Part shown: piece by piece, positions 8,544 through 33,060 of the stretch
Numbering within the stretch: position 1 is the stretch's first letter
Layout: every line of letters starts with the position of its first letter
Origin: Thermobifida halotolerans
GTDB lineage: Bacteria > Actinomycetota > Actinomycetes > Streptosporangiales > Streptosporangiaceae
DNA: 64,000 nucleotides
Assembly: GCF_003574835.2 (NCBI RefSeq)
Contig: NZ_CP063196.1
Coordinates: 1,798,001 to 1,862,000 of the forward strand
Direction: 5' to 3'
The notes under the pieces: model-generated
Seen by the model: the letters and a program-made list of their open reading frames with translations, nothing else
Database searches by the model: none
Told to the model about the DNA's origin: nothing
Made by a program: the position numbers and the translations under genes

Positions 8544-11500
8544 GTGTCAACTGGTCTTCGCGTTGGAAATATCGTTGTATGTCCGAAAAGTCCTGGCATG
8601 GGACGAATCGGCGAGGTAGAGCAGGGGCGGGTGCGTGTCGACTTCTTCGAGTCGGTCGCCGATCCTGCAGCCGAATCCATGTGGGTCCCATCATCCACCT
8701 GCAACCACGTGCAACTCGCTCCTGAGACCCGTGTCTACTGGCACAATCCTGATACTGGAACGTGGCTGGCAGGCCGGATCAGAGGAACCAAGGGCAACGG
8801 CGACGAGTACTTCGTACGATTTCCCAACGTCCCATACGACTTTCCTGTCCCTGAAGAGCAGTTGCGGGTGCGTTGGGACCGGCCAGTACGCAACCCCGTC
8901 ACCATCCTCACAGCCGGAGGGAACGAATCCCCCTACTACCGCAACGCGCGCCTGTCGATGCTGAGTGACCTGATCAACCAACGGGCAGCCAGCGCGAGCA
9001 CCTTTTCCCTGCTCTCCTCTGCTGTCGAACTCTATCCTCACCAACTCAACGCTGTGCTGCGTGTCCTCTCCGATCCGGTACGCCGCTATCTGCTCGCTGA
9101 CGAAGTAGGCCTCGGCAAGACCATCGAGGCGGGGCTTGTCGTCCGGCAGACCCTCATCGACAATCCGGAATCCCGCATCGTCATTCTTGCTCCCGAGACA
9201 CTACGCCGCCAGTGGGTCCGGGAGTTGCGGGAGAAATTCTTCATCGACGATTTTCCCGACGCCCAAGTGCGGGTGGCCGCACACGAGCAGCCAGAGCGGT
9301 GGACCTCCTACCACGGGTGCGACCTGGTCGTTGTTGACGAAGCACACCAACTGGTCCAGGTCAGTGGCCCTGATGAGAGTCCTTACCAACAGTTGTGCGG
9401 GCTTGCCCATTCGGCCCCGAGCCTGCTGCTGCTTTCTGCGACTCCTGTCACTTCTCACTACACCACGCACCTGGGACTACTGCACCTTCTGGATCCGGAG
9501 TTGTACCGGTGGACGGACCAGGAGGCTTTCCGTTACCGACACCAACTGCGCGCCCGACTCGCCGACAGTGTCTACGGTCTCGACAGCGAGTACACCTACC
9601 TGCTGCCCTCCTCCATCGAGGAACTCCGAGGCCTACTCCCTGCGGAAGACAGAAGATTCGCCGAACTGAGCGAACAGATACTGGAACTGCTCGACGAGAA
9701 CGACGAACTTCGGGAGGACGTGGATGCCAAGGAGTTGGCCTACCGGGTGGAGGCGCTACGCGGCCACATCAGCGAGGCCTACCGACTCCACCGGAGAATC
9801 ATCCGCAACCGCCGTGCCAAAGTTCTCGCCAGCCAGGAGTCGGAGGAATCTCTCCCCTACGAAGTGCTTGGGCGGCAGGCTCCCGAGCCACTGCTTCTAG
9901 ACTCGGCGGTCCTGGACACGGCGGCCCACGAGGCGACGACGACCGCAGTGCTCGACTGGCGCAGCAGGATCCATGACGCATTGCTGGACTCGGACGCAGG
10001 CGAAGAAGAGCAACTCCCCTACGCTCTGGTACTCGCTGTTCTCACCTCACGATCGGGTGTCCTCGCCGATGACCTGCTGGCCGCGCTGCGTTGGCGGATT
10101 CACCAGGACGAGAGTACGGCGGAAACCGCCGGGCTGACCCCGCGCGAACGGGAACTCCTGGCCGCTCCCCCCGTTCTGCCCGTGGAGCGTACGGTGCTAG
10201 CCGACCTCCAGGAACGGTTGGCAGGTGCGGAGGACACCGAAGCCCTCAATTCCGTCATTGACCTCATGCTCCCGGTATTCAAGCGACACCCGCGTGTTGT
10301 GGTCTTCTGCGGTCCAGGAGCCCTGGCCTCAAAATTGACCGACTGTCTACGCAGCCGCTTCCAGAGAGCACTCTTCTGCGAGCACACATACCGTGTCGGA
10401 GCCGCCAAGATGGAAGAAGAGCTCGATACCTGGCGCACATTCAACGGAAAGAAATCGAGAGCTGCCGTCCTGGTGGCTGACAACTCCGCCGAGGACGGTC
10501 TTAACCTGCAACTGGCAGACGCCGTCATCCACTTGCGTCTTCCCTGGTCCCCCAACCAGTTCGAGCAGCGCATGGGGCGTGTGGACCGCTACCGGAGCGC
10601 AGACTCGCTCCACCGAACCGGTCCCGCAGGACAGTATTGGCTGAGCAGGGGCAGCGGCGGAGACGAGTCCTTCGTCGGAGCCTGGGGGGGGCTGCTGCGG
10701 GATGGCTACAGGATCTTCGAGGAATCGGTGTCCACCCTCCAAGACGCCATCGCCGAAGGGCTGACCGAGGTCTGGAAGAACGCCTTGACTAATGGTCGGG
10801 AAGGGTTCACTGCGGACGTCCAACGGGTGCGTGCACAGTTGACGACCGCCCGTGAGGAGATCACCAAGATGGACATGCTGGAGTCCATCCACGACACCTC
10901 ACTGGGAGGCCGTGACATTGCCGAACTCCTTGACTCCTACGAGCAGCGGTGGCGTGACACCCAGTGGGCAGTGCTGAACTACACCTCGAACAGTGGCGGT
11001 GGTATCGGACTACAGCGTCGGACCCGCCGACTGAACTCCGTTGAACGGGTGGAATTCGATGTCTTCAGCGCCCAACCCCTGATTGACCCGCGTTCCTGGC
11101 GACGCCTCAGACTACGGGTCTCTAAGGAGATGGCGTCTGGAACATTCAACCGTTCGGCTGCACTACGTTCCCCGGGAACCCGATTGTTTCGCAGAGGCAA
11201 CCCACTGATCGACGAGTTGGCTTCTGTGGTCTTCAGCGATGACAGGGGACAGGTTGCGGCCTTCCGTCGCGTGGATCCCTCCCTGGCTGGGCCCCCCGAG
11301 CCCTACTTCGGTTTTCTTTATCTTGTGGAGGCCGACATCGAGGAAGCGTTGGAAATTGTTGGTGATTCCACCGCAGCGCAGGCACTGCGCCGCCATGTGG
11401 ACAGCATCCTGCCGCCGTTCACCCTGACGGTGTGGCTGTCCGGAGATTCGAAGACCCCGGTCACCGATCCTCGACTGCTCGACTGGCTCAACCTGCCCTA

Positions 11501-11873
11501 CGACAAGAAACGCAGAGATCAGAACTACAACAACACCCGCATCGCCGAACTCATCGAACTCTTCAACGGGTGGGACACCTACCGCCTGGCCGCGGAGAGC
11601 GCCGAGGAGGCCGCCCGTAGACGCCTGGTCGACATCACCGACATCGATCAGCGTTGCGCGGAGGCACAACACCAGGCCCGGCAGCAGTTGGCGATCGCCC
11701 GTGCCCAGGCAGAGGCACGAAAGGCCGCAGGACGCCTTGTGGGTGACGCCGAAAGCTACCTGACCGACGTCGGTGTAGCCGAAGCGTTGATCGAAGGGCT
11801 CAGCAAACCCGTAACCCGTGTTGTCTCGGCGAGTTGCCTGGTGCGCGTCGGGTTGGAAAAGGGCAGGGCATGA
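8544..11873 (+). CDS. dpdE: DpdE, SNF2-family helicase of the Dpd system
   Basis: This SNF2-type DNA-dependent ATPase of 1109 residues opens the dpd restriction operon. The N-terminal 110 residues hold an SH3-like segment (VGNIVVCPKSPGMGRIGEV). Motif I is DEVGLGKTIEAG (about 186-197), motif II is VVDEAHQLV (about 264), motif III is LLLSATP, and the C-terminal helicase lobe carries motif VI as QRMGRVDRYR. In Salmonella Montevideo dpdE is linked to the restriction-like phenotype and is not needed for modification. The start is a GTG at 8544 with AGGAG 12 bases upstream. The stop overlaps the dpdF start (ATGA). Confidence 0.88.
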   Translation: MSTGLRVGNIVVCPKSPGMGRIGEVEQGRVRVDFFESVADPAAESMWVPSSTCNHVQLAPETRVYWHNPDTGTWLAGRIRGTKGNGDEYFVRFPNVPYDFPVPEEQLRVRWDRPVRNPVTILTAGGNESPYYRNARLSMLSDLINQRAASASTFSLLSSAVELYPHQLNAVLRVLSDPVRRYLLADEVGLGKTIEAGLVVRQTLIDNPESRIVILAPETLRRQWVRELREKFFIDDFPDAQVRVAAHEQPERWTSYHGCDLVVVDEAHQLVQVSGPDESPYQQLCGLAHSAPSLLLLSATPVTSHYTTHLGLLHLLDPELYRWTDQEAFRYRHQLRARLADSVYGLDSEYTYLLPSSIEELRGLLPAEDRRFAELSEQILELLDENDELREDVDAKELAYRVEALRGHISEAYRLHRRIIRNRRAKVLASQESEESLPYEVLGRQAPEPLLLDSAVLDTAAHEATTTAVLDWRSRIHDALLDSDAGEEEQLPYALVLAVLTSRSGVLADDLLAALRWRIHQDESTAETAGLTPRERELLAAPPVLPVERTVLADLQERLAGAEDTEALNSVIDLMLPVFKRHPRVVVFCGPGALASKLTDCLRSRFQRALFCEHTYRVGAAKMEEELDTWRTFNGKKSRAAVLVADNSAEDGLNLQLADAVIHLRLPWSPNQFEQRMGRVDRYRSADSLHRTGPAGQYWLSRGSGGDESFVGAWGGLLRDGYRIFEESVSTLQDAIAEGLTEVWKNALTNGREGFTADVQRVRAQLTTAREEITKMDMLESIHDTSLGGRDIAELLDSYEQRWRDTQWAVLNYTSNSGGGIGLQRRTRRLNSVERVEFDVFSAQPLIDPRSWRRLRLRVSKEMASGTFNRSAALRSPGTRLFRRGNPLIDELASVVFSDDRGQVAAFRRVDPSLAGPPEPYFGFLYLVEADIEEALEIVGDSTAAQALRRHVDSILPPFTLTVWLSGDSKTPVTDPRLLDWLNLPYDKKRRDQNYNNTRIAELIELFNGWDTYRLAAESAEEAARRRLVDITDIDQRCAEAQHQARQQLAIARAQAEARKAAGRLVGDAESYLTDVGVAEALIEGLSKPVTRVVSASCLVRVGLEKGRA

Positions 11874-14452
11874 CCAGTGACCAATGGACGCAGGCACAGC
11901 AACTCTTCTCCACTTGGACCGAAGGCCATATCATAGACATCCCCGCTGCGGGCACGGTCCGGCGGTTGAGAGACGCGCTCAACGGCCTGCGCTCCGGAGC
12001 AACAGGGTGGCGGGACATCGCCGCTCTCACCCGGCAGGTGCTGTTGGAGGCACAGGTTCGTGGCAACGACTCTCCACTGAATGTGCCCCGACATCCGCTG
12101 TTTCCCACCCAGGAGCAGTGGCTCCAGGCCCACTGCGGCGTCACCTACGGAACCGATGAACACACCCTGAGGGTGTGGGGCCAACCGTGGGTTCCGGGAA
12201 GTCTCGAAGGTTCCGCAGCCGAAGCGGCCGAATCCGACCTGCGTCAGGTGTACCTGGGTCTGGACTCCCCACAACGCCGTTCACTCACCGAGCGCCCAGG
12301 AGACCCCTTCTGGTCCGCCACGTTGGGAGAGGAGTTCCAGCACTATCTGTCCGCAGGCCAGCAGCAGACCGCTCGGTCGGTCGCCCTGGCACCTCCCGGC
12401 AGCACCACGATCGTCTGCCTGCCCACCGGACACGGCAAAACGTTTGTGGCATTGGCGGCCGCACTGCTGGACGACCGTAGTGGCGTGTCCGTCATCGTTG
12501 TGCCCACTGTGGTGCTCGCCATCGATCTGGAACGGCGTATCCGCGTGCTTGCGGAGAAACGTGGCTGTCCGTCGCCTACCGGGCGCTACGCGTACACAGG
12601 AGACCTGCCCGCGGAGGTCAAGGAACGCCTGACCTCCGACATCCGCTCCGGTCGGCAACGGGTGGTACTGGCGGCGCCGGAAGCGGTCACACACGGACTC
12701 AAGCGACCGTTGGCGGACGCGGCACGGGCGGGGCTGTTCCGCTACTTCGTACTCGACGAGGCACACCTGGTCGACCAGTGGGGTAACGACTTCCGGCCTG
12801 ACTTCCAGTCCATCGCTGGCCTACGCCACTCCTGGGTGAGCAACGCGCCGGAAGGACGCGCTCCTCGCACCGTGGCGATGAGCGCCACGCTGACCGACCA
12901 GCAGATCACTACCCTTCGCACGCTGTTCGGCTCGCCCGGTCCGGTGGAGGTGATCTGGGCGAAGCAGGTACGCAGCGAACCCAGTTACTACATCGACCAG
13001 TTCACCAACGAGGAAGAGCGCACAGCGGCGGTGCTGAAGGCGGCCACCCTGCTTCCCCGGCCACTGGTGTTGTACGTGTCCAAGAGAAAAGCAGCCGAGG
13101 ACTGGGTCGCCCGGCTACACAACGCGGGAATGCACAGAGTCGCCCGGGTCACCGGAACCTCCTCCGGGGAACAACGACGGGACGCCCTTCAGGGGTGGAG
13201 TGGCCGGTTCTCTGAGCAGGACATGCCCACCCGGTTCGATATCGTGGTCGGCACTTCGGCATTCGGCCTCGGCGTCGACCTACCTGACGTCCGCACAGTT
13301 GTGCACTCCTGTCTTCCTGAAACGGTGGACCGCTACTACCAGGAGGTCGGTAGGGGCGGGCGTGACGGCAGTCCTTCTCTGGCCTACATGGCCACCGCCC
13401 CCGCGGACATCGCCACAGCGGAGAGCCTGAGCCAGGGGTCGATCATCTCCGATGAGAAGGCCTGGCCGCGTTGGCAGGGCATGTTCCACAGCCGTACGGA
13501 GGACGGCGCGGTGTTCCACCTCAATCTGGACGCTCTACCCATCCACCTTTCTTCCGGTTACGGGCGAAGCAAGCGGTGGAACATACATACGCTCAACCTG
13601 ATGGCGCAAGCCGGCCTAATCGAACTTCGGGAGTCCACAGAGCCGCAGCGCGGCCAGGATGAACCCGAAGCCAGTTGGCAACGCCGTCTGCAGGAGTACT
13701 ACGAGCAGTCGGACTCCCGGATGGACGTGGTGCTTGTTGACGGCCGCACGAACGAACACGACTACTTCACCGCTCGGATCAACGAGACTCGGGCGAGGAT
13801 CCTGGACAGTCAGCGGGCAGCTTTGGAACAGCTCCACAAGGCGTTGCGCGGCGACCGTTGTATCGGCGACGTATTCGCTGAGTACTACACGGTGGACGAC
13901 CACATCACCGCTCCCGCCTGTCGCGGTTGCCCGCACTGCCGTCGCGGCGGTCCCACATCCGACCTCGGTTTCTATCAGAAGGGGTGGGAACCCAATCCCA
14001 GCGTCGTCCTGTGGTCGAAGTCGCACGCGGATCCGCTGTCCGCGTTCCGTCCTCCCGACCAGGCTTGTCTGAGTATCTGGTGGGACACCGAGGAGGAGCG
14101 TGAACTACTCCCCGAACTGCTGGTCCAACTCTGTCGTAGGGGAATGCCGTTCCTCGGCGGCCCTGGAGCAGACGAGGCGACAGTCCGTCGCGTCCAGCGG
14201 GACGCCCTGCCCTATCCAGTCGTCTACGACAGTGACCAGAGCCTAGTCTTCACCCATCCGGCTCCGGTGATCTGGGTGGAGGACACAGATCACGAAACGC
14301 TGACCTTCGAAGCAGCGGCGCGATTCCACAGCCCCGATGTCCTGTACCTGCTGCATCCTCGGCAGTTGCGCCACCCGGAGCGCCCTGATCAACTGTTGGC
14401 TGACCTGCATACAGCCAGCATCCCCCTCCGTACAGCCTGGAAAGCCCTGTAA
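11870..14452 (+). CDS. dpdF: DpdF, RecQ-like DEAH-box helicase of the Dpd system
   Basis: This superfamily 2 helicase of 860 residues has Walker A PTGHGKT (about 185-191), motif II LDEAHLVDQWGNDFRPDF as in RecQ, SAT in motif III, and motif VI in the form EVGRGGRDG. After the helicase core a cysteine cluster, CRGCPHCRRGG, may bind zinc, like the RecQ zinc domain. It probably unwinds or translocates on DNA as part of restriction. The ATG at 11870 overlaps the dpdE stop by ATGA, which supports this start over in-frame codons further upstream. The stop TAA overlaps the dpdG start. Confidence 0.87.
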   Translation: MTSDQWTQAQQLFSTWTEGHIIDIPAAGTVRRLRDALNGLRSGATGWRDIAALTRQVLLEAQVRGNDSPLNVPRHPLFPTQEQWLQAHCGVTYGTDEHTLRVWGQPWVPGSLEGSAAEAAESDLRQVYLGLDSPQRRSLTERPGDPFWSATLGEEFQHYLSAGQQQTARSVALAPPGSTTIVCLPTGHGKTFVALAAALLDDRSGVSVIVVPTVVLAIDLERRIRVLAEKRGCPSPTGRYAYTGDLPAEVKERLTSDIRSGRQRVVLAAPEAVTHGLKRPLADAARAGLFRYFVLDEAHLVDQWGNDFRPDFQSIAGLRHSWVSNAPEGRAPRTVAMSATLTDQQITTLRTLFGSPGPVEVIWAKQVRSEPSYYIDQFTNEEERTAAVLKAATLLPRPLVLYVSKRKAAEDWVARLHNAGMHRVARVTGTSSGEQRRDALQGWSGRFSEQDMPTRFDIVVGTSAFGLGVDLPDVRTVVHSCLPETVDRYYQEVGRGGRDGSPSLAYMATAPADIATAESLSQGSIISDEKAWPRWQGMFHSRTEDGAVFHLNLDALPIHLSSGYGRSKRWNIHTLNLMAQAGLIELRESTEPQRGQDEPEASWQRRLQEYYEQSDSRMDVVLVDGRTNEHDYFTARINETRARILDSQRAALEQLHKALRGDRCIGDVFAEYYTVDDHITAPACRGCPHCRRGGPTSDLGFYQKGWEPNPSVVLWSKSHADPLSAFRPPDQACLSIWWDTEEERELLPELLVQLCRRGMPFLGGPGADEATVRRVQRDALPYPVVYDSDQSLVFTHPAPVIWVEDTDHETLTFEAAARFHSPDVLYLLHPRQLRHPERPDQLLADLHTASIPLRTAWKAL

Positions 14453-15336
14453 TGACCCTGATCAACGTCTCCGCTTCGATCCCCACTCTGATGTGGCCGG
14501 TCGTACGATTCCTGGCCAGTGTCCGCAAAGGCATCGACAAAGAGCGTGCCCGCGCCTATCTCAGCCCACCGGCACTGGGCGACGACGGGAAGGTTTTCGA
14601 CGCCGCGGTGAGCACGCTGGTGGAACTCGGACTGGTCGAGGAAACCGAAGGCGTCCTCTCGCTCGCCGCCTCCGCCAAGGAGCTCGACGCAGACAACCTG
14701 GCCGACTTCCAGAAGGTACTGCGGGAAGCCGTACTGGCTCCTGAGCGCAACACCGGCCTTGGGGATGACGACAGCCACACCGGGCCTCGGGACCTGACAC
14801 GGGCCCTTGCCTGGTACCTCTCCCTGGACCCGAGTACTACCGCACTCAACTGGGCGGAGGCCCAACAGGTGCAGGAAGAAACCTCTTTCCGCCCTGAAAT
14901 CGGACGCCCCCTCGTGAACAACACCCGGTGGAATCGTTTCGCGTACTGGGCTTCCGCACTCGGCTTGGCGACACCGTCGCTACTGACGAACGACCGTCTC
15001 GTCCCAGACTGCACCACCGCGGTCCGGCAGGTGGTCCAGAGCAGGTGGAAACCTGGAGAGCAACTCCCCGCACTGCAGTTTCTGCACGCTCTCCGTGCTG
15101 CCCTGCCTGTCCTGCCCGGCGGAGCCTACGCGGAAGCCATCGGCCTCCCCTCCCCCGGCGATGCGGTCGCCGGTCCTTCCCTCTCCTTCGCCCTGCTTCG
15201 CGGCGAGGACGAAGGCTGGCTCCGCCTGGACCGAGACGCCGACGCTCCGCAGTACCTCAGCGTGCACTCCTTCGAACAGGGCACCTCCCCCCGCTCCTGC
15301 ACCTCGATCACCATTCTGGAGGACCCCCGTGGCTGA
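14452..15336 (+). CDS. dpdG: DpdG, Dpd restriction-associated protein
   Basis: This 294-residue soluble protein lies between the RecQ-like helicase and the DpdH ATPase, as expected for DpdG. It begins MTLINVSASIPTLMWPVVR. A likely winged-helix segment around residues 25-80 (KGIDKERARAYL through GLVEETEGVLSLA) suggests nucleic-acid or protein contact. No catalytic motif was recognised. The name rests on position and general character. dpdG is one of the genes reported as needed for restriction in Salmonella. Its ATG overlaps the dpdF stop (TAATG), and its end overlaps the dpdH start. Confidence 0.72.
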   Translation: MTLINVSASIPTLMWPVVRFLASVRKGIDKERARAYLSPPALGDDGKVFDAAVSTLVELGLVEETEGVLSLAASAKELDADNLADFQKVLREAVLAPERNTGLGDDDSHTGPRDLTRALAWYLSLDPSTTALNWAEAQQVQEETSFRPEIGRPLVNNTRWNRFAYWASALGLATPSLLTNDRLVPDCTTAVRQVVQSRWKPGEQLPALQFLHALRAALPVLPGGAYAEAIGLPSPGDAVAGPSLSFALLRGEDEGWLRLDRDADAPQYLSVHSFEQGTSPRSCTSITILEDPRG

Positions 15337-18300
15337 CGTCTTCCGCGGCTATCTGTGCTGGGACTTGGAGAAGGCTGCGACGACCATCAACACCGAGGCG
15401 GTCAGCCCATCCGCAGCGGTGTTCCTGGCCACGCACGCTCCGCTGCGCATCCGGCGTTCCCACATCCAGGGCCGTGACCTGGTGTCCACCGACACGATGG
15501 TGAACGAGCACGAGGTGCTCCGCGACTTCCTGGAACGGCGGCCGGACACGGGGACGCTGCTGATGCCGATCATCGGTGACTCCGGCTCCGGAAAGTCGCA
15601 CCTGGTGCGCTGGGTCAAGGAGCGGTTTCCGCGTTCGGACAGGCACCATGTGATCTATCTGGAGAAGGCCAAGACCAGCCTGAAAGCGGTCATCGAAACG
15701 CTGTTGGAGGGAGTGAACGACAAGAACCTGGACAGGTTGCGCGAGGACATCCGGTCTTTCAGCACCAGGATGGACGCAGAGGCACTGGCCCGCCGTCTGG
15801 TCAACTCCCTCAATGAGGCTCTCGCCGCCACAAAACCCGCCGAACTCTCAGGCGCGGCCCGTGCCCTGGCGGGGCCCGGCGGACTCGCCATCCTGCTTCA
15901 GGACCCGCACATCCAGGAGCACATGCTCCAGCAGGACAAGTTCATTCCGCAGTTCGCGGAACGGCTACTCCACGACCGTAGGGAAGGCGTCCAAGAACGC
16001 CCTCCGGCCTTCACCGTCGACGACCTGCCCTTGAATGTCAACGACGTGGGCCAGGCTGCCCAGGTGTCGCAGAAACTACTCAAACTCCTCCTGTCCAGAT
16101 CGGAGTTGCGTACTGCTGCGGTGGACCTGCTGAACAAGCATTGGGAAGCCGCCGTCAAAAGCGTGTCCAGCCTCAGTTCCGGGCGACTGCACGAAGCCAT
16201 GCTGCAGGTACGGCAGGCCTATGCCCGCCAGGGCAAAGAGATTGTGCTGCTCATCGAGGACTTCGCGCTGATCCAGGGCGTGCAACGGGACCTGCTGGAC
16301 GCGATCACCGAGGCGGCCAACCGCTACGGCAATGCCCAGTACGCACCGATTCGCACCCTGATGGCGGTGACCAAAGGCTACTTCCGCGAGTTCCTACCCG
16401 AAACCGCGATCAGCCGCATCTCGGCCGCCACCATGGGTTACGTCTACGACCTCGACGTTCCTTTCAACGAAACGGACACCGGAACGGAAGTCATCGCCTC
16501 CTTCGTCGGCCGCTACCTCAATGCCGCCCGGGTGGGCCGCACTGAACTGGAGCGCCGTGGCCCCGACGACGTCCCCAACGCCTGTGAGGAATGCCCGTTC
16601 CAGGAACCCTGTCACGAAGGATTCGGCGCCACCGCCGAGGGATACGGCCTCTACCCTTTCAACCGGAGCGCCTTGGTCCGCACGGTGCACTCGGTGGCTC
16701 CCAAAGAGGAGCCCTGGGCATTCGTGCCGCGCACAGTTCTGGGCAGTGTCATCCGACCGGTGCTGGTGGAGCATGCCGATGCCCTGGCCAAGGGGGCCTT
16801 CCCCGACAACCGGTTCCGTGACCGTTTCCCACTCACCGATATCGACAGCCCGCTTCCTGAGAACGTCGGTGAGTTTGTCGCCGCAGTCGACGAACTGGAC
16901 GGCGAACGCCGGAAGAACGTGTTGGAGATGTGGGCGGACGCACCCCACAACCCCCACCACGTGCCACCAACCGTACTCGAGGCGTTCGGTCTTCCTCCCC
17001 TACCGCAACGGGACGACCGGTCCTTCACTGAGACAGCGTCTCTCCCGAAGCCCAGGAACACCGCTGTCGAGTCCGCACCCAAAAGCACCGCCCCCGAAAC
17101 CGACATTCCAGCGTCCATCCGTCGCAAGTTGCAGACGATCAGCGACTGGAACTCCCGCAAAAAACTCCTCCCCCAAGAGGAGGCCCGGGAGATACGTACG
17201 ATCATCGTGGACACCATCAGACGTCGCTATCTCTGGCTGTCGCCACCCCTGCGGGAACAGTCCACGGACGTCATCCGCAGGGCGCTGCCCCCCAAATCCA
17301 CCAGTGTCTCCATCGAGGGGGCGAACGCCGAGAATCTGCCCGGCGTCGAGAACGCTCCCGTCCGGTTCCGCCGCACTGCGGCCAACAGCCTCTTCTTCCA
17401 GAACCTCATCCTGGCAAACAACAACGTCGGTCGTCCGCGCTCCGAGGACATGCGCCGTCTGGCCTCTTTCGCGGAGGAGAAGACCGACGTGCTCATGACC
17501 GCTATCCAGCGCCACCTCGGCACCTCCGACGACGACCTGGTACTGGGACTGCGGGCTTCCCTGCTCGGTGCCGCACTGGCTGGACAAGCGACTCCGGACA
17601 TGACCGAACCCGAACTGCTGTCCGCTGCATTCGACTACGGTCAGGACTGGGAGCGCGGCGACACGGCCATCCGTTCCGCGGGATGGACGAGAACTCTGGG
17701 ACGCCATTTGGAACACCGGAAACTCCTCGTAGACACCCTGCGTTCCAGCCTGGGCGTCGCCCAGGGCACCGGCTCGGTGCGCATGATCGACGCTGCCCGT
17801 GCCCTGCCGCTACTGCGCCGCGCCACCGAGAAGTGGGAATGGGAACTGGAGGGGCGTCGCCTTCCCGAGTGGATGTCCAAAGCGGTGGGCAATTTCTCCT
17901 CCTGGAACCAATGGATGGAGGAGCACGCCGAACTGCTCCGCGGCCGCCTGCAGGAGATCCGGCGACGGCTCCCCAGGGGCGTCAACGGCCGTGAAACCGT
18001 GAAAGCCGTGGAGACCGCGCTCAACGAAGCCCGCAAGGTGGGACTGCTGTCCGCCCTGTCACCGGGAGACCTCGCTCGCCTACAAGAGTTGCTGCCCCGC
18101 CTCGCCAAAGCGAACTGGCAGGTCGTCTCCCACCTGGAGACGGATCTGGAACGGGCCGCGAATGAGAAACATTCCCCGAACCAGCGCCGACTCTCACTGA
18201 TCAGCGCGGTGACGCGAGACCGCGGTTCGGTATTGACCGACATCCAGGAGTTCCTGACCATCTCCGATCGGTGGCTCGACTCGGCACTGGTTCAGGCGAC

Positions 18301-23588: not shown

Positions 23589-24115
23589 GTCAAAGCGAGA
23601 CACTGGAACGCACGGTCCGCACCGGCACGGGAACCGGACTGCGTGCCGACACACTGCTGGCCACAGCCCTGCTGGCAGAGTTGGTGTCCCCCAGCCCGGA
23701 GTTGTGGATAGTCTCGGCGTGGATCAGCGACGTCGAGATACTCGACAATGCTCATGCGGGTTTCAGCGCGGTACTTGACGAGAGCAGTGCGTCGGCGTGT
23801 CATTTGTCGACGATACTGGGGCTGATCGCCAACACCGGTGCCCGCGTCCACATCGTCACCCGGCCCGGCCCCCACAGCGGGACGTTCGTCTCCCGCGTCC
23901 GTGCCCTGGTGCGGAACCCGGAGCGGCTGCACGTGGTGTTCGACAGCAGGGTGCACGAAAAGACGATATGCGGTCGGAACTGGATCCTAAGCGGTTCCAT
24001 GAACTTCACGGTCAACGGTCTGGGAAGCAACAAAGAGCAGGTGACCTACACCGTGGGAGGCGGCCGGGCCGACCAGGCCCACCTCGACTTCACGGAGCAG
24101 TGGGGGGCCGCATGA
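23585..24115 (+). CDS. dpdK: DpdK, phospholipase D-like nuclease candidate
   Basis: This 176-residue PLD-family protein has one HKD half-motif: H124 and K126 in RVHEKTICG, then the SGSMNFTVNG stretch, and E151 further on. A single half-motif implies a homodimer forming one active site, as in the nuclease Nuc and BfiI-type enzymes. It is the only clear nuclease-like protein in the island, so it is the best candidate for the enzyme that cuts unmodified DNA; that role is an inference. dpdK is needed for the restriction phenotype in Salmonella. GTG start at 23585, overlapping the dpdJ stop; the end overlaps the dpdD start. Confidence 0.83.
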   Translation: MSQSETLERTVRTGTGTGLRADTLLATALLAELVSPSPELWIVSAWISDVEILDNAHAGFSAVLDESSASACHLSTILGLIANTGARVHIVTRPGPHSGTFVSRVRALVRNPERLHVVFDSRVHEKTICGRNWILSGSMNFTVNGLGSNKEQVTYTVGGGRADQAHLDFTEQWGAA

Positions 24116-26214: not shown

Positions 26215-26225
26215 TAAGAACGCCA

Positions 26226-26265
26226 CCGGTGGGGCTGGGCGCCTGATCGCACCCAGCCCCACCGG
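26226..26265. terminator. Bidirectional terminator between the two dpd operons
   Basis: CCGGTGGGGCTGGG (26226-26239) and CCCAGCCCCACCGG (26252-26265) form a perfect 14-bp stem with a 12-base loop. It fills the 52-bp gap between the dpdD stop and the stop of the convergent dpdB-like gene. Confidence 0.88.
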
Positions 26266-26266
26266 G

Positions 26267-27439
26267 TCACCCCCGGGTCTCCGCTGTCCGGATGACCCGC
26301 AGCAGGTGGGTGGTCAGCTTGCGCACGTCGTTGGGTGTGTTCTGCAGGCTGTTCCACTTCTGCTCGTCGTCCTCCCCAAACCGCCACGTGCCCTCCGTCC
26401 AGGCGACGTGCGGACGCAGGCTCTCCAGGGCGTCGCGTACCCTGATGCAACGCACTCCCTCTGCGGGCAGCTCATCGGTGAGGGCGTCCATGACGAACCC
26501 CATCGCCTGGATGCCAACGCCGTGGGTGAGTCGGGAGTGGCGCGGCGGTTTACGCCAGGCGTCGGGAAAGATCTCTTTGACCAGTCCCCAGAACCCCTTC
26601 AGGTGGGTCAGCATGCGCTCGACGTCGCCGCTGCCGTCGACGGGATTGCGGTACTGGTAGAGCGCACCCTCGAAGAGACTGTGTTCCAGCATCTTCAGCA
26701 GGCTGTTGTCCTTGATGTAGCCGTCGGGTGCGGTAGGGCTGGCGACAAGGCCATAGAAGGGCCCGTCGCCGTCGATGTTGAGCCGGGTCATCAGGTAGGC
26801 GGGAAGTTTGCGTCGAACGTAGGCGGGCGGCAGGTGACCGGTGGTCTCGGGCAGCAGTTCGTGGATGAGGCCCTTGGGCAATGGCTTGGTGGAGTTGACC
26901 AGGATGAACTGGGAGCGCTGTTCCTCCACGTTGTCGGCGATGAAACCGACGGCGGCCACGGGGAACTCCGCCAGATCGGCATCACGGATAGCGGCGCTGC
27001 GCTGTTGGCCGTCCACAAGCCAGGCGGGTTTCTGTTCCTCGGGCAACGACTCGTCGACAGGGATCACCAGTTCTCCGGGAATGGCGTAGTCGACGCTGCC
27101 CGTCTGACCGTGGCCGACGAAAGTAACCCTCGAGTCGAAGGCCAGGACAATGGCGTTGGGCATCATGGCCCCATCCGACTCCAGGTAGCGACGGATGGCT
27201 CGGATGTGACTGAGTACCTCGGGACGCTGATAGCCCTGCAGTCGCTCCTCCTTATCCCGCCGGACGCGGGACACGGCGGCGAAGCTGTGCAACTTCTTGC
27301 CGTCGATGGCGAAGCAGTAGATCCGCCGCTTTCCCTGGTGCACTTCCAGGGCGGGGATCCGGAGCGAATACTGGTCAGCCACGTCTTCTCCCAGGTCGAG
27401 CCGTGAAATAGTTGAGGGGTTGTTGTCAGGCGAAATCAA
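26267..27439 (-). CDS. dpdB: DpdB-like DGQHR-domain protein, copy 1
   Basis: This 390-residue protein of the DGQHR/DndB-like group carries the signature VDGQQRSAAI (DGQQR at 143-147), related to ParB/Srx-fold ATP-binding motifs. In Salmonella, DpdB is needed with DpdA to place preQ0 in DNA; other systems can do without it. The start is ATG 27439, 14 bases inside the end of dpdA. It shares several motifs with the second DGQHR protein at 28643-29776, including LTHGVGIQAMG and a C-terminal LQNTP, so the two look like paralogues. Which copy is the functional DpdB cannot be told from sequence alone. Confidence 0.78.
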   Translation of the reverse strand: MISPDNNPSTISRLDLGEDVADQYSLRIPALEVHQGKRRIYCFAIDGKKLHSFAAVSRVRRDKEERLQGYQRPEVLSHIRAIRRYLESDGAMMPNAIVLAFDSRVTFVGHGQTGSVDYAIPGELVIPVDESLPEEQKPAWLVDGQQRSAAIRDADLAEFPVAAVGFIADNVEEQRSQFILVNSTKPLPKGLIHELLPETTGHLPPAYVRRKLPAYLMTRLNIDGDGPFYGLVASPTAPDGYIKDNSLLKMLEHSLFEGALYQYRNPVDGSGDVERMLTHLKGFWGLVKEIFPDAWRKPPRHSRLTHGVGIQAMGFVMDALTDELPAEGVRCIRVRDALESLRPHVAWTEGTWRFGEDDEQKWNSLQNTPNDVRKLTTHLLRVIRTAETRG

Positions 27440-28646
27440 TGTCGTTCATCTTGGACCTCAAGATCGTGAGGTTGTGAAATCCTCTGCGCTTGTTCCGCTC
27501 CGACCCTCGGAAGATGATGATCTCGATCCCGTGCTTCTGACACAGAGCGCAGGAGCACGACTTCCATGGAGTTTCTTCGAGCGTGCGCCGGTACAGGTCG
27601 ATGTAACTTCTCTTCTTAGAGGTGTTGACAATCCGCTCGTAGTTCACGAGCGCGTCGAGGACGTCGTCGATCCGCACGTTTCCCTGATCGTATCCACGTA
27701 GCAGGCGCAAGCACTCACGTTCCGCAACCACCGCTTCCGCCTGGGACACCGCTCCGGAAAGGATTTGACGTTTGAGTGCGGGGTTGCCGTCGACCTGGGG
27801 GACCCGGACCGCGGTGAACATGGAGTCGCGAGTGTGGTAGTTGTTTCGGTCATCCATGAACGCCTGCCGGAAGGCCGACGTACTGTCGAAGCTGCGCACG
27901 CCGAAGTTCGCGAAGAGTTCCATGCTCTCCACACGTGTGATCCCGAGCAGGTGGAGTTCAGTTTCGGGGGCGCGAATCTTCTCGATCTCTTCCAGACATG
28001 CCAGGATCTCCGCAGTCTTGAGTGGGACCATTCCCCCAAGAGCGATGCGTCGATACCCCATCTGCTGCAGCCGGTTCACGCTGTCCGCGTAGCTGGCCGG
28101 ACTCCAGCCCTGCGCGGCACCGACCGGAATGAGCCGGGACCTGCGTTTGCGGAGTTCAGCCAGAAAGTCCTCGGCGAGGTCCAAAGAGATATGGCGACGT
28201 TTCACCCACGCCGGATCGGCCTGTTTCTCGTCTGCGTCAGACTCGTAACCGAAGATCACATGGTCGATACTGACACCCTCGTCGAAGCCGCACTCTTCGT
28301 AGAAGTCCACCACCTCGGCGACGTTGTACGGCGGATATTCCTCGTTGATGTAGTTGAAGGCACCACAGTCACCCAACGTCACTATCTCGGGAGGCAGTCG
28401 GAAGAACCTTCGTACCCCCATGCGGTAGAGCCTGGCACGCTGGGGTTCGGTGTACTTGCCAGCTTTGCGCTCTCCTCCGTCGACGATGGCCTTGCTGACA
28501 AGTATGCCGTTGTAAGGGATTGGCGTGACCACCTCGTGGGCGTACTGATCGTCCCGCTGCCGCACCCGGACAGGCGAGTACTCATCAGTGAGGAAGTCGT
28601 AGGTCGGACTCACCAGGTCCTGGCTATCAGGAAAATAGAATCTCAC
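27426..28646 (-). CDS. dpdA: DpdA, DNA 7-deazaguanine transglycosylase
   Basis: This TGT-family enzyme swaps a guanine base in DNA for preQ0. It has 406 residues. The general acid/base Asp is D93 in GDCGAFNY (tRNA TGT: DSGGFQ), the probable nucleophile is D254 in RSFDSTSAF, and GGMVPLK (about 204-210) matches the base-recognition loop. The zinc site C364, C366 and C369 with a later His (H391 or H372) is intact. It lacks the tRNA-binding PUA extension. The GTG at 28646 overlaps the upstream gene's stop (GTGA), and its first residues read VRFYFPDSQD; longer in-frame starts would bury it in that gene. Confidence 0.92.
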   Translation of the reverse strand: MRFYFPDSQDLVSPTYDFLTDEYSPVRVRQRDDQYAHEVVTPIPYNGILVSKAIVDGGERKAGKYTEPQRARLYRMGVRRFFRLPPEIVTLGDCGAFNYINEEYPPYNVAEVVDFYEECGFDEGVSIDHVIFGYESDADEKQADPAWVKRRHISLDLAEDFLAELRKRRSRLIPVGAAQGWSPASYADSVNRLQQMGYRRIALGGMVPLKTAEILACLEEIEKIRAPETELHLLGITRVESMELFANFGVRSFDSTSAFRQAFMDDRNNYHTRDSMFTAVRVPQVDGNPALKRQILSGAVSQAEAVVAERECLRLLRGYDQGNVRIDDVLDALVNYERIVNTSKKRSYIDLYRRTLEETPWKSCSCALCQKHGIEIIIFRGSERNKRRGFHNLTILRSKMNDIDFA

Positions 28647-29776
28647 GACGTTTTCGCCTTCGTCTGAACGTACTCGCGGATGAGGTAATTGGAGAGCGTG
28701 CTGATGTGGCGAGGGGTGTTCTGCAGTTCGTTCCAGTTGACGTTGAGGGCCTGCCACCGACCGTGGGTCCAGCAGCACTTCCCTTTGATCAGTGCCAACT
28801 CCGCGCAGGTGCGTTCCACTGCATCCTCGGCCGTCACATCGACGTTGGCCATCACACGATCCATCAGGCGTCCCATGGCGCGGATTCCCACCCCGTGCAT
28901 CAGTCGGCTCTTGGTAGGCGGCAGTCCCCAGGCATTGGGGAATGTGTCACGGACCGCCGCCCAGTAGGTGGCAAGCACCCTGAGAATTGCCGCCGTATCC
29001 GTGGTGTTGTTCAACAGGTTCCGGTGGAGGAACAGGACGCCAGCCGAGGAGTTCAGCGACTCTTCGATGGCGGTCATCAAACTGTTGTCTTTGATCACCG
29101 CTTGGCTGCGGTCCTCCGTCTTGGTGGAGGCGCGTTTGATCATGCCTCGCAGTGGCGAGTCCGCGTCCTGGTTGAGAACGTCCACCAGTGCGGAGGGCAG
29201 CTTCCTCGCAGAGAGCTTGGCGGGCAGTGGCATCCAGACCTCGGGCAACAACTCTGAGACCAGGTTGGATGGAAGTGGGGAGACAGTGTTGACCCGGAGG
29301 AACTGGTCACGCTGGGTGGTCAGGTCCTCGGTGACGAATCCCGCGACGGTGACGGGCAGTCGGTTGTGTCGGGTACGGGCGAGAGCGAGACTGCGCTGTT
29401 GACCGTCGACGATCCAGGCCGGTCTGGGCTCCCCCGGTGACTCCGGGAGCCTGATCTCCAGAGTGCCACTGGTGGCCAACCCGTCACTGGCGGCGGGGCC
29501 AGGACTGGACCGGAACCGGACGCTGTTTGGCAACGCCAGGATCAGGCTGTTGGGGAACAGCACCTCGTCGCTGTCAAGGTACTCCAGGATCTGCCGCACG
29601 TGCTGCTTCTTTTCCGGCCGCTGGTAGCCGATGAGCTTTCCCGCCTCGTCCCGGGAGATGCGTGCCACATCTGCTACCTGGTTGATCTCCTCTGCGGCCA
29701 GTGTGAACAGATAGAGCGGGATGTTCGGGTGCTGGTGAATCTTCAGTGCCCTACGCTTCAGAACGAGACCTGACAT
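28643..29776 (-). CDS. dpdB: DpdB-like DGQHR-domain protein, copy 2
   Basis: This is a second DGQHR-family protein, 377 residues long, lying immediately upstream of dpdA. The signature is IVDGQQRSLALAR (DGQQR at 124-128), and the C-terminal half shares LMHGVGIRAMG and LQNTP with copy 1. The ATG at 29776 overlaps the stop of the gene before it (ATGA), and its own stop overlaps the dpdA start (GTGA), so dpdC-candidate, dpdB-like, dpdA and dpdB-like copy 1 form one coupled unit. It may form a heteromeric partner for DpdA, or one copy may be regulatory, as DndB is; both ideas are inference. Confidence 0.78.
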   Translation of the reverse strand: MSGLVLKRRALKIHQHPNIPLYLFTLAAEEINQVADVARISRDEAGKLIGYQRPEKKQHVRQILEYLDSDEVLFPNSLILALPNSVRFRSSPGPAASDGLATSGTLEIRLPESPGEPRPAWIVDGQQRSLALARTRHNRLPVTVAGFVTEDLTTQRDQFLRVNTVSPLPSNLVSELLPEVWMPLPAKLSARKLPSALVDVLNQDADSPLRGMIKRASTKTEDRSQAVIKDNSLMTAIEESLNSSAGVLFLHRNLLNNTTDTAAILRVLATYWAAVRDTFPNAWGLPPTKSRLMHGVGIRAMGRLMDRVMANVDVTAEDAVERTCAELALIKGKCCWTHGRWQALNVNWNELQNTPRHISTLSNYLIREYVQTKAKTS

Positions 29777-30666
29777 CACTCTTCCATCGTCGCGGCGTAC
29801 AGAAGAGCGAACCGCTTCTGTTCGCAGGCTCTGCCGCTCTCCCGCAGCAACCGGTGGAGTCTGGTTCGGGAGTAGCCGGGGTTCCTCGCTGACTCCGTCC
29901 GTATGAACTCTCGAATCTCTTCGTCCGTCATTGGAGTCCGCTGATAGCGCTCGTGGTGCTCCGCGGCGGCGGCCCACCTCTTCCAGGAGGCAGCGGTCTC
30001 GGCGGAGACGAGTGGACGTCCCGTCCTCCAATGCTTGAGCCAGGAAGCGGCCATACGTACGTTCAGGCTGGTGAGTGTGCCTCCCAGCGCTCCCCGCAGT
30101 GCACCGTTGGCAGGCACTCGGTGAATACCGGGAATGTCACGTTCCCCACCGATCAGCAATACGTCGTCGCCTCTCTGTCCTGCGGCGCGCAGTTCGTCGT
30201 GCATCGCGGCCGCGTAGGGCTCTGAGAGCACCAAGAGAGCGGGACCTTGATCTGCTAGCTCGCTGAGTGTGGTGGCTCCACGCGCTTCCTGGAGACGGCC
30301 CCACCACCGGGTTCGCTCCGTTCTGGTCGACGCGACGGAATCTGCGTGCCGAGCCCCGAAAGTCGCCGCATACGGAGGTGCGGTGTTGGACACCGACTGG
30401 AGTCCCAACCCGGCAGAGGCGACCCACAGCTGGGGAGAGAGTCCGGCCGAGACCGCGGTCTCCACCAGAACGCGCACTTGGACCCAGTGTTCTCCCTGGT
30501 AGAGCTGGGCGAGTGAAAAACTCCTCGGTACTTCGCCAAGACGTTTGTCCCAGATTGCCACACGGTGGTCAACGTTGCCCTCGGGGAGATTCCGAGCCAG
30601 GAGTTCGGGAGCCGGACGCGCCATCTTGCGATCTGTGCAGGTAACTACAAGTGATAGTTGCCTCAC
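29776..30666 (-). CDS. dpdC: DpdC candidate, YaaA/DUF6884-like protein
   Basis: This 296-residue protein begins MRQLSLVVTCTDRKMARPAP, similar to the N-terminal strand and Cys-x-x-(R/K)-K motif of YaaA/DUF6884-type proteins. A middle stretch, LLVLSEPYAAAM and DVLLIGGERDIPG, looks like an alpha/beta core, and a helical tail follows. DpdC in Salmonella converts dPreQ0 in DNA to the amide form (dADG). Position in the modification operon and size fit DpdC, but the assignment is not certain. The start is GTG 30666. It is first in the leftward operon and divergent from queC. Confidence 0.6.
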   Translation of the reverse strand: MRQLSLVVTCTDRKMARPAPELLARNLPEGNVDHRVAIWDKRLGEVPRSFSLAQLYQGEHWVQVRVLVETAVSAGLSPQLWVASAGLGLQSVSNTAPPYAATFGARHADSVASTRTERTRWWGRLQEARGATTLSELADQGPALLVLSEPYAAAMHDELRAAGQRGDDVLLIGGERDIPGIHRVPANGALRGALGGTLTSLNVRMAASWLKHWRTGRPLVSAETAASWKRWAAAAEHHERYQRTPMTDEEIREFIRTESARNPGYSRTRLHRLLRESGRACEQKRFALLYAATMEE

Positions 30667-30776: not shown

Positions 30777-31472
30777 ATGGAACGACCCGCAATCGTACTA
30801 CTCAGCGGCGGTCTGGACTCAACAACCGTGTTGGCCATCGCCCGCGAGCAGGGCTTCACCCCGTACACGCTGAGTTTTCGCTACGGGCAGCGGCACAGCC
30901 TCGAACTGGAGGCCGCCAAGCGGGTGGCCCAAGCCATGGGCGCGGCACGTCACGTGATCACCGACATCGATCTGCGGGTCTTCGGTGGTTCGGCATTGAC
31001 CGACGAGATCTCAGTTCCCAAGCACGGCAGCGTGGAGGAGCTCGACGCAGCAGCCGTCCCGGTGACCTACGTGCCGGCCCGCAACACCATCTTTCTGTCC
31101 TTCGCCCTGGCCTACGCCGAGGTGGTCGGTGCCCAGGACATCTTCATGGGCGTCAACGCGGTGGACTACAGCGGCTACCCCGATTGCCGCCCCGAGTACA
31201 TCGCGGCCTATGAGAAGATGGCCAACCTTGCCACCCGGGCAGCCATCGAGGGCGAAGGGCGTATCACCGTGCACACCCCTCTGATCACCCTGTCCAAGGC
31301 GGACATCATCCGCGAGGGAGTGCGGTTGGGCGTGGACTACTCCCTGACCTTCAGCTGCTACGACCCCGACGAACAGGGCAGATCCTGCCGGAGGTGTGAC
31401 ACCTGCCTACTGCGGCTCAAGGGGTTCACCGAAGCCGGGTTTATCGATCCCATTCCTTACCAGGCCGGTTGA
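30777..31472 (+). CDS. queC: QueC, 7-cyano-7-deazaguanine (preQ0) synthase
   Basis: QueC turns 7-carboxy-7-deazaguanine into preQ0, using ATP and ammonia. It has 231 residues, the usual length. The PP-loop SGGLDST is at about 10-16, YVPARNT and [14 protein letters not shown] are the conserved QueC segments, and the C-terminal zinc site [18 protein letters not shown] supplies four cysteines. Most actinomycetes are thought not to make tRNA queuosine, so this copy most likely feeds DpdA. The stop lies 2 bp before the queE ATG. Confidence 0.96.
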
Positions 31473-31474
31473 CC

Positions 31475-32110
31475 ATGGGATATCTCGTCAAGGAGATCTT
31501 CTACACCCTGCAGGGAGAGGGTGCCCACACGGGCCGTCCCGCCGTCTTCTGCCGCATGTCCCGCTGCAATCTGTGGACTGGTTATGAGAAAGACCGACAT
31601 CGGGCGATCTGCCAGTTCTGCGACACCGACTTCGTAGGAACCGACGGGGTGGGCGGCGGTCGGTTCGCCACTGCGGACGAACTGGCCGACGCCGTTGCGC
31701 AGGCCTGGCCCTCAGTCTCCACTGACCACAGGTTTGTCGTCTGCACCGGGGGCGAACCCCTACTCCAGTTGGACGAACCCGCCGTCGAGGCCTTACACAC
31801 ACGAGGCTTCGAGGTGGCGGTGGAGACCAATGGCACACGTCGCCCTCCACGTGGGATTGACTGGCTCTGCGTCAGCCCCAAGATCGGCGCCGAACTCGTC
31901 GTCACCAAAGGTGACGAACTGAAACTCGTCTTCCCTCAGGAAGGCGGTGACCCGACCAAATTTGAGCAACTGGACTTCAGGTTCTTTCGTCTGCAGCCTA
32001 TGGACGGTCCCGAACTCGAGGTCAACACACAAGCTGCTATCGAGTACTGTCTGAAGAATCCGCGCTGGACGCTCTCCCTGCAGACACACAAATATCTAGG
32101 AATCCGTTAG
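31475..32110 (+). CDS. queE: QueE, 7-carboxy-7-deazaguanine synthase (radical SAM)
   Basis: This radical SAM enzyme of 211 residues contracts 6-carboxytetrahydropterin to 7-carboxy-7-deazaguanine. The cluster cysteines have CX14CX2C spacing (SRCNLW ... ICQFCDTDF), the variant known from Burkholderia QueE, in place of the canonical CX3CX2C. FYTLQGEGAHTGRPAVFCR at the N-terminus and TGGEP (GGE motif) are conserved. The ATG at 31475 is preferred; a TTG at 31469 is also in frame. The stop TAG immediately precedes the queD ATG. Confidence 0.95.
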   Translation: MGYLVKEIFYTLQGEGAHTGRPAVFCRMSRCNLWTGYEKDRHRAICQFCDTDFVGTDGVGGGRFATADELADAVAQAWPSVSTDHRFVVCTGGEPLLQLDEPAVEALHTRGFEVAVETNGTRRPPRGIDWLCVSPKIGAELVVTKGDELKLVFPQEGGDPTKFEQLDFRFFRLQPMDGPELEVNTQAAIEYCLKNPRWTLSLQTHKYLGIR

Positions 32111-32467
32111 ATGGAGATCTTCCGAGAATTCGGCTTCGAGGCGGCACACCGACTGCCGAGGGTCCCAGAAGGACACAAATGCGCCCGCCTTCACGGGCAT
32201 TCCTACCGCGTCATCGTCCACGTCGACGCCCCCGTTGATCCAGAAAGCGGTTGGGTGATGGACTTCGGGGACATCAAGCGAGCGTTCAAACCGATCCGGG
32301 ACCGACTCGACCACTACTACCTCAACGAACTCGACGGATTGGAGAACCCGACGAGCGAGAATCTGGCCCGTTGGATCTGGGAGCGCCTGCGGCCAGTGCT
32401 GCCTGCCCTGTCCGCTGTCACCGTACGCGAAACTTGCACTTCCGGCTGTACCTATCAAGGAGAGTGA
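32111..32467 (+). CDS. queD: QueD, 6-carboxytetrahydropterin synthase
   Basis: This is a PTPS-family enzyme of 118 residues acting on dihydroneopterin triphosphate. The zinc ligands are His in EAAHRLP and the pair in LHGHSY, the catalytic Cys is in [10 protein letters not shown], and VMDFGDIK and a late Glu (VRETCTSGC) complete the site. It starts with ATG directly after the queE stop, in the same operon. A GTP cyclohydrolase gene (folE) is not in the window, so the substrate probably comes from the folate pathway. Confidence 0.95.
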
Positions 32468-32547
32468 ACTGCAGGTCCGCAGGTCTCGGGGGAGAATCCG
32501 TCTCTCCCGTAGTTCGGTGAGTATCCATCCCCCGAAGGAGCACCTTG

Positions 32548-33060
32548 ATGATCCTCACCCCCCGTGCCCTAGTTCTGTGGAGTCTCTACACCGCGACCGT
32601 GATTGGTGCGAACCTGGCTGTCGCCTACATTGGCATGCTACCTGTCGGATTCGGCTTGGCTGCGCCTGCCGGGGTTTACCTGGTAGGTCTTGCACTGGTG
32701 CTGCGGGATCTACTTCAAGACGCGACATCGTGGCGGTGGTCTCTGGCTGCCATTGTTGTTGGCGCGGCCCTGTCAGCAGCGTTCTCTCCCGAACTCGCCA
32801 TCGCCTCGGCAGCAGCCTTCCTGTTCTCTGAGATCGCCGACTTGGTTGTGTACACGCCGCTCCGTAAGCGAGGCTTGGTCATAGCGGTGGCCGTGTCTAA
32901 CGCGGTTGGGTTGTTTCTCGACTCAGTGCTGTTTCTGTGGCTGGCATTCGGCACTCTAGAATTCCTGGCCGGCCAGGTGCTTGGTAAAACGTGGATGACG
33001 CTCGTAGCGATCGTAGTGCTACTGGTTATCCGTCGCCCTCGCCAGGCGATAGCCCAATGA
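32548..33060 (+). CDS. VUT-family (YhhQ-like) membrane protein, probable queuosine-precursor transporter
   Basis: This 170-residue protein with about five or six membrane segments has the VUT-family landmarks APAGVYLVGLALVLRDLLQD, SAAAFLFSEIADLVVYTPLR and GLFLDSVLFLW. Members import 7-deazapurine precursors such as preQ0. Here it sits 80 bp after queD, so it probably adds imported precursor to the supply for DNA modification. A GAAGGAG ribosome site seven bases before the ATG at 32548 decides the start. It is the last gene with island-like base composition. Confidence 0.85.
   Translation: MILTPRALVLWSLYTATVIGANLAVAYIGMLPVGFGLAAPAGVYLVGLALVLRDLLQDATSWRWSLAAIVVGAALSAAFSPELAIASAAAFLFSEIADLVVYTPLRKRGLVIAVAVSNAVGLFLDSVLFLWLAFGTLEFLAGQVLGKTWMTLVAIVVLLVIRRPRQAIAQ

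Follow-up and report, generated by a model that had tools for sequence, protein, structure and literature searches.

A probable chromosomal Dpd modification-restriction island with two DpdB paralogues in Thermobifida halotolerans

Introduction

The stretch of DNA that is considered here, 64,000 nucleotides from the chromosome of Thermobifida halotolerans (hereafter "the window"; all positions refer to it), contains at positions 8544-33060 a 24.5-kb group of genes in which an initial annotation had recognised a complete Dpd island, i.e. a system that places 7-deazapurines in DNA and restricts foreign DNA. The locus raises the question of whether this gene set is that of a Dpd system whose product is bound for DNA or for transfer RNA (tRNA) and, as it encodes two different DpdB proteins, of how the modification complex of this lineage may be built. 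With a probability of about 0.93, we consider the island to be a chromosomal Dpd modification-restriction system, most likely horizontally acquired.

Dpd systems are already known, well described and common in actinomycetes, and the island is a further example of them. The 2025 GATOR-GC preprint (PMC11888242) counts 333 unique dpd windows in Actinomycetota among 2,335 in all, with fully intact operons in more than 50%, and already reports extra dpdB copies (n=801) and YhhQ in approximately 9% of the islands; it also describes dPreQ0 and dADG, the deoxynucleosides of 7-cyano-7-deazaguanine (preQ0) and 7-amido-7-deazaguanine, in Salmonella Montevideo, where unmodified DNA was inhibited, and experimentally validated 7-deazaguanine bases in the DNA of Kineococcus radiotolerans. 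Eight associated genes lowered the transformation efficiency, according to a review (PMC12707154). The parts of the present island that we consider worth following are the rule of two DpdB proteins and a lead on DpdG.

Our comparisons are based on 80 genome loci, the best 80 of 104 relatives found in species-representative genomes with one actinobacterial DpdA as the query (by their titles Actinomycetota, as far as these are readable), so that the counts describe close relatives and not all Dpd systems, and on 10 plasmid loci from 26 matches. Each locus extends no further than 10 kb from dpdA, or less where the contig stops earlier, and the counts of the transporter and of the restriction genes are thus lower bounds.

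The gene set of the island

The island is coherent in open reading frames (ORFs), composition and family searches. The plus strand carries the series dpdE-F-G-H-I-J-K-D, with adjacent genes tied by short overlaps; the genes dpdC-dpdB2-dpdA-dpdB1 are located on the minus strand, convergent with this series, and queC-queE-queD, together with the gene of a VUT/YhhQ-type transporter, are divergent from dpdC. Ten proteins score over the cut-offs of their NCBIfam equivalog models (DpdA, DpdB twice, DpdD, DpdE, DpdF, DpdG, DpdH, DpdJ and DpdK) and DpdC is matched by PADLOC; together, the genes make up a complete Dpd island with preQ0 synthesis, which upholds the initial annotation. The genes of modification and supply are the following (scores and cut-offs in bits):

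26267-27439, minus strand: dpdB1, DGQHR protein of the downstream type, to which the Enterobacter protein also belongs; its start is uncertain (NF041060, 530, cut-off 300; position and tree)
27426-28646, minus strand: dpdA, DNA-guanine transglycosylase (NF041059, 625, cut-off 200; PDB match 7ui4; residues D94, D255, C365, C367, C370 and H392, numbered from 28649)
28643-29776, minus strand: dpdB2, the other DGQHR paralogue, which precedes dpdA (NF041060, 408, cut-off 300; position and tree)
29776-30666, minus strand: dpdC, predicted to convert dPreQ0 to dADG (PADLOC PDLC02817, 386)
30777-31472, plus strand: queC, preQ0 synthase (TIGR00364, 202, cut-off 150)
31475-32110, plus strand: queE, 7-carboxy-7-deazaguanine synthase of the Cx14CxxC type (TIGR04508, 347, cut-off 240; motif)
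32111-32467, plus strand: queD, 6-carboxytetrahydropterin synthase (TIGR03367, 111, cut-off 89; Pfam PTPS)
32548-33060, plus strand: VUT/YhhQ-like transporter, candidate preQ0 importer (Pfam Vut_1, 40.6, cut-off 27.2; relatives in at least 20 of the 80 loci)

The start of dpdA is most likely the GTG at 28646 rather than 28778, with a GTGA overlap with dpdB2. DpdC, previously proposed as a candidate, matches its PADLOC model across 296 of 296 residues, with no match in NCBIfam or Pfam. QueC, QueE and QueD all exceed their cut-offs and, with FolE encoded elsewhere in the host genome (5.5 Mb, two contigs), complete the supply of preQ0.

By analogy with the characterised systems, the housekeeping FolE and the QueD, QueE and QueC of the island would make preQ0, which the transporter may also import; DpdA, driven or guided by DpdB1 and DpdB2, would swap chosen guanines of the DNA for preQ0, DpdC would convert dPreQ0 to dADG, and the products of dpdE-K and dpdD (three helicases, an AAA/STAND ATPase, a PLD-like nuclease, DpdG, DpdI and DpdD) would recognise and destroy unmarked DNA.

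DpdA and the destination of preQ0

The genes could alternatively be read as a tRNA-guanine transglycosylase (TGT) homologue and que genes that serve tRNA queuosine or salvage, next to the helicases of an unrelated defence cluster: QueC, QueD, QueE and VUT-type transporters also belong to queuosine genes, and the NCBI family is itself named "tRNA-guanine transglycosylase DpdA". The score of 625 bits was obtained, however, with a model that is specific for DpdA, and the single PDB match at E<=0.01 is the structure 7ui4, "DNA-guanine transglycosylase" (E 7e-124); the Pfam TGT model scores 19.9 bits, below its cut-off of 26.3. In the alignment of DpdA from the window, the 80 genome loci and the 10 plasmid loci, the six residues listed above are invariant in 91 of 91 rows; D94 and D255 correspond to D89 and D264 in E. 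coli Tgt, which we take to be its catalytic residues, and the cysteines and the histidine are presumably the zinc ligands. The DNA-type enzyme with intact residues that had been noted from the sequence is therefore present.

A tree of DpdA, with 18 of the 80 actinobacterial rows and the root placed on E. coli Tgt, contains a branch with a support of 99 that has 30 DpdA rows on one side and, on the other, E. coli Tgt with a single archaeal protein annotated as a TGT; this is a rough test, with one bacterial tRNA TGT, extreme TGT branches (5-10) and the zinc site of the E. coli protein unaligned. In this tree and in the PDB and Pfam results, a grouping of DpdA with the tRNA-acting enzymes, which would have spoken against the initial annotation, was not seen. 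The model of the bacterial tRNA TGT (TIGR00430) has zero matches in the host genome at E<=10, and matches all 14 control genomes, 10 of them over the cut-off. Furthermore, dpdC, dpdB2, dpdA and dpdB1 occur together with queC, queE and queD in 75 of the 80 loci. We therefore regard a role in tRNA queuosine or salvage as very improbable; because FolE is present and a tRNA TGT match is absent from the genome, the preQ0 of the island is most likely destined for DNA, and the host DNA would be expected to carry dPreQ0 and dADG by analogy with the characterised systems. Its own preQ0 synthesis and the lack of a tRNA TGT match make this host a clean setting for the study of Dpd, since every 7-deazaguanine that is made should be bound for DNA.

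Two DpdB paralogues with fixed positions

The DGQHR proteins that had been noticed in the island are two DpdB proteins, both over the NF041060 cut-off and 40% identical to each other across 352 residues. We have compared their positions with those of the DGQHR copies that score more than 60 bits in the 80 genome loci and the ten plasmid loci, a count that omits weaker matches, e.g. in loci L078, L079 and L088. All 81 copies that are located upstream of dpdA score better to the DpdB2 of the window, and all 85 copies that are located downstream score better to its DpdB1 (one of the latter is a reverse-strand gene in L073). The upstream copies have a mean identity of 67% to DpdB2 and 40% to DpdB1, and the downstream copies 69% to DpdB1 and 40% to DpdB2 (n=77 each). 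DpdB2 before and DpdB1 after dpdA are found together in 77 of the 80 genome loci, with the exceptions of L041 (one short copy), L081 (none) and L088 (one), and both are also present in four of the five alphaproteobacterial plasmid loci (L090, L091, L097 and L098; none in the Acetobacter locus L095). A description of this fixed B2-A-B1 order was not found in the literature searched, a search without the main Dpd papers.

The DpdB alignment comprises 165 of 168 rows (166 copies and the two from the window), with lengths of 250-470 residues and with the reverse-strand DGQHR protein of L073 removed. The motifs GYQR and DGQQR are kept in nearly all rows of both types (82 and 83 rows), and hence neither type looks dead. 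In a tree of 56 rows (18 random loci, L012, L032, L074, the copy-bearing loci among L087-L098, the window and two cyanobacterial proteins), the DpdB1 rows and the Enterobacter protein form one side of a branch with a length of 1.29 and a support of 100 in the Shimodaira-Hasegawa-like approximate likelihood ratio test. The DpdB2 rows do not form one side of a branch, as the two distant cyanobacterial proteins attach among them (2 changes, forced by the starred branches). A root on these two DGQHR proteins was not trusted, their branches being of approximately 5 changes per column. The single DpdB of the Enterobacter plasmid locus (L089) and the alphaproteobacterial DpdB1 rows are long branches that meet with a support of 81 and drew a warning from the program; the assignment of the Enterobacter protein to the B1 type is also based on its identity of 49% to the DpdB1 of the window versus 39% to DpdB2.

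From these sequence comparisons, we read DpdB1 and DpdB2 as the products of an old duplication that is common to actinobacteria and alphaproteobacteria, by descent or by transfer, and the enterobacterial form as one that has lost DpdB2; because the root of the DpdB tree is unsafe, DpdB2 may instead have been gained, or DpdB1 may have arisen from DpdB2. The fixed places, the identity of approximately 40% and the joint occurrence in 77 of the 80 loci point to distinct roles, and the modification complex of this lineage probably uses two non-identical DpdB subunits. The order also raises the possibility that a subunit kept by most of the actinobacterial relatives is missing from the enterobacterial form. 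The two proteins could instead be redundant, either of them being enough for DpdA, as the invariant motifs that they share and the single DpdB of the enterobacterial islands would allow; with the two classes never swapping places above 60 bits, and with so low an identity between partners that regularly occur together, we find redundancy doubtful. Our fuller proposal is itself a tentative one, held at well below even odds: DpdB1 and DpdB2 would form a non-interchangeable hetero-complex with DpdA in the widespread form of Dpd, the enterobacterial systems would be a reduced form with DpdB1 only, and DpdG would be a tandem winged-helix reader, similar to those of FokI, SspB and BrxA, of the sequence or of the unmodified state.

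The two-DpdB part of this proposal is weakened by the loci that have fewer copies. Five of the ten plasmid dpdA loci, i.e. the Acetobacter locus and the cyanobacterial and Paenibacillus loci L092, L093, L094 and L096, have no DpdB above 60 bits (in L092 and L096, the opposite strand has a gene annotated as DndB or DGQHR), so that DpdA can occur without DpdB. The Enterobacter island and the E. coli GE3 island each carry one DpdB, and DNA near the Enterobacter dpdA-dpdB stretch is found in 161 of 5426 E. coli genomes.

Three loci have unusual contents. A third, diverged DGQHR gene (L073, 13254-14369, minus strand) is located beside the two-DpdB dpd core of Mycolicibacterium arenosum; Actinomadura sp. 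J1-007 (L081) has dpdA with queC, queE and queD, and no match to DpdB or DpdC within its 21-kb locus; and in the Paenibacillus plasmid (L094), a long DpdA is accompanied by a second TGT-like gene, DpdJ, que genes and a VUT transporter, without a DpdB match.

The restriction genes

The putative restriction arm consists of eight genes on the plus strand:

8544-11873, plus strand: dpdE, SNF2/RapA-like helicase with GLGKT, DEAH and QRMGRVDR (NF041062, 1170, cut-off 500; PADLOC DpdE)
11870-14452, plus strand: dpdF, RecQ-like helicase with GHGKT, DEAH and QEVGRGGR (NF041063, 844, cut-off 550; PADLOC DpdF)
14452-15336, plus strand: dpdG, possible winged-helix DNA reader (NCBIfam equivalog, 132, cut-off 80)
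15329-18403, plus strand: dpdH, AAA/STAND-like ATPase with GDSGSGKS (NF041065, 1134, cut-off 450; Pfam AAA_16)
18400-19086, plus strand: dpdI candidate with an all-helical model (position, relatives, weak profile match; predicted local distance difference test score 89.7)
19041-23588, plus strand: dpdJ, DExH helicase with GSGKT, DEVH and QRRGRAGR (NF041067, 1784, cut-off 800), of the YprA family according to PMC12458937, which also notes a PLD-type nuclease
23585-24115, plus strand: dpdK, PLD-like nuclease candidate with HEK ... GSMN (NF041068, 174, cut-off 100; Pfam PLDc_2 below cut-off)
24112-26214, plus strand: dpdD (NF041061, 650, cut-off 300; PADLOC DpdD, 702)

The presence of four large NTPases (SNF2, RecQ-like, AAA/STAND and DExH) was confirmed by the model matches and by the Walker A motifs, which are kept in all four, with DExH and QxxGR kept in the three helicases. 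All eight ORFs are uninterrupted, and seven of the eight proteins, all except DpdI, match their Dpd models over nearly the full length and above the NCBIfam cut-off. Sulfur-transfer genes of the Dnd and Ssp systems (DndC/DndD, SspA-D) are not among the matches listed for 16 of 16 island proteins in PADLOC (the first 25 for DpdE and for DpdJ) and NCBIfam and for 15 of 16 in Pfam (all except DpdJ); among these matches, the DGQHR/DndB domain is the only feature shared with these systems.

Of the three proteins that had been proposed as DpdG, DpdD and DpdI, the first two are confirmed by their models, and DpdI is still a candidate, with support from position, conservation and a weak profile match. 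The DpdI candidate has no match at E<=0.001 in Pfam, PADLOC or NCBIfam, and its only PADLOC match at E<=0.1 is the unrelated JetC model. It is located between dpdH and dpdJ, at the same place as an unnamed ORF of the Enterobacter island that itself matches PADLOC DpdI; a profile of the candidate and 31 of its 35 relatives (found by tblastn in at least 35 of the 80 loci) aligns weakly, over the C-terminal 134 columns, with the protein of this Enterobacter ORF (probability 76%, E 2.3e-5).

The model of DpdG, for which 14 of 16 relatives were aligned with the window protein, weakly resembles the DNA-reading regions of FokI, Nt.BspD6I, BpuJI, SspB and BrxA, which makes DpdG a candidate for the subunit with which the restriction arm reads DNA; a description of its fold was not found in the same literature search, which was without the main Dpd papers. 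A DNA reader among the restriction proteins, if true, would bear on how Dpd distinguishes marked from unmarked DNA.

The restriction of unmodified DNA by the island is expected by analogy with the characterised systems. It is also conceivable that, next to a working modification arm, the restriction genes are decayed or silent and the island merely marks the DNA. Islands without a restriction operon are reported in the published survey (PMC11888242), and DpdK, noted earlier as a PLD-like protein, would fit this reading: the HKD motif of the PLD family usually includes an aspartate, and DpdK shows HxK and GSxN and no evident Asp. Against decay, the open ORFs, the near full-length matches and the conserved NTPase and helicase motifs described above lead us to consider a silent restriction arm unlikely.

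Composition, borders and distribution

The guanine-cytosine (GC) content in 2-kb windows is 0.60-0.65 within the island and 0.69-0.75 in the flanks (0.66 in the window that spans the right border), with steps at approximately 7.8 kb and 33.2 kb. DpdA passes the cut-off in 7 of the 150 genomes sampled from the family, that of T. halotolerans included (an eighth match is weak and partial), and in none of the other three genomes of the genus, a patchiness that fits transfer. From the lower GC content and the patchy occurrence, we infer that the island was most likely acquired horizontally.

Several observations speak against this overall interpretation or parts of it. Direct or inverted repeats of 13 bp or more that are common to 7400-8700 and 32900-34600, as would be left by attachment (att) sites, were not found, nor was an empty site in any of the four genus genomes by DNA searches with the right-border gene, the left stretch and a farther right stretch, all of which gave scattered, non-syntenic or multi-copy matches. 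The transporter that had been named along with queC-queE-queD passes Pfam Vut_1 but stays below the TIGR00697 cut-off (35.3 vs 50.95 bits). To these are added the lack of an evident Asp in DpdK and the status of DpdI as a candidate assigned through position, conservation and weak profile similarity; lastly, the 7-deazapurines could be few or conditionally made.

In the relatives, the restriction genes occur in varied orders and are mostly less conserved in identity than dpdA and dpdB, a pattern that points to their exchange or to an evolution faster than that of the modification core. Nocardiopsis sinuspersici (L012) has the same order, VUT-queD-queE-queC / dpdC-B2-A-B1 / D-K-J-I-H, with best-segment identities to the window of 79% for DpdB1, 81% for DpdB2 and 73% for DpdA, and with more diverged restriction proteins (DpdH 50%, DpdI 40%; dpdE-G are located beyond the stretch compared).

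Relation to known systems

As described in PMC11888242, the Dpd system of S. Montevideo has dpdA-C and dpdD-K as in the window, and the islands of K. radiotolerans and other Actinomycetota are of the same group, in which the synthesis and restriction operons are complete. By their annotation, the islands of the Enterobacter plasmid and of E. coli GE3 share with the window adjacent dpdA and dpdB, dpdE and dpdF (Enterobacter also G, H, J, K and D); they have one DpdB, which is of the B1 type in Enterobacter, and que genes are absent from their annotated stretches, unlike the window, which has two DpdB proteins, preQ0 synthesis and the VUT transporter. In BRIGADE and in BREX-related capture systems, TGT or 7-deazaguanine genes are likewise linked to helicase or nuclease defence (PMC12458937, PMC12839542); BRIGADE is reported solely from halophilic archaea, whereas the window has canonical Dpd genes, and the capture system is built on HerA/FtsK and BREX parts, without the DpdB or DpdC of the window.

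Additional features in and around the island

Four additional features were identified:

26226-26265, no strand: 14-bp perfect inverted repeat that occupies the interval in which the convergent genes dpdD and dpdB1 face each other with their stops
33164-34426, minus strand: PCMT-like methyltransferase, at the right border
33391-33484, minus strand: tRNA-Gln call of 94 bases (ARAGORN)
35762-39247, plus strand: NACHT-domain protein of 1161 residues (Pfam, 41 bits), 2.7 kb past the island

The inverted repeat folds as DNA with -25.4 kcal/mol (z -4.26; 0 of 200 shuffles equally low) and is likely a bidirectional terminator. DNA related to the methyltransferase recurs at several sites in the host genome and in the genomes of the genus, and it thus looks like a multi-copy family; the tRNA-Gln call is located inside its ORF and is probably a false positive. 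The NACHT protein, excluded from the island with a best PADLOC match of merely 14 bits, could be, by its domain, a bacterial defence gene similar to nucleotide-binding leucine-rich repeat (NLR) proteins.

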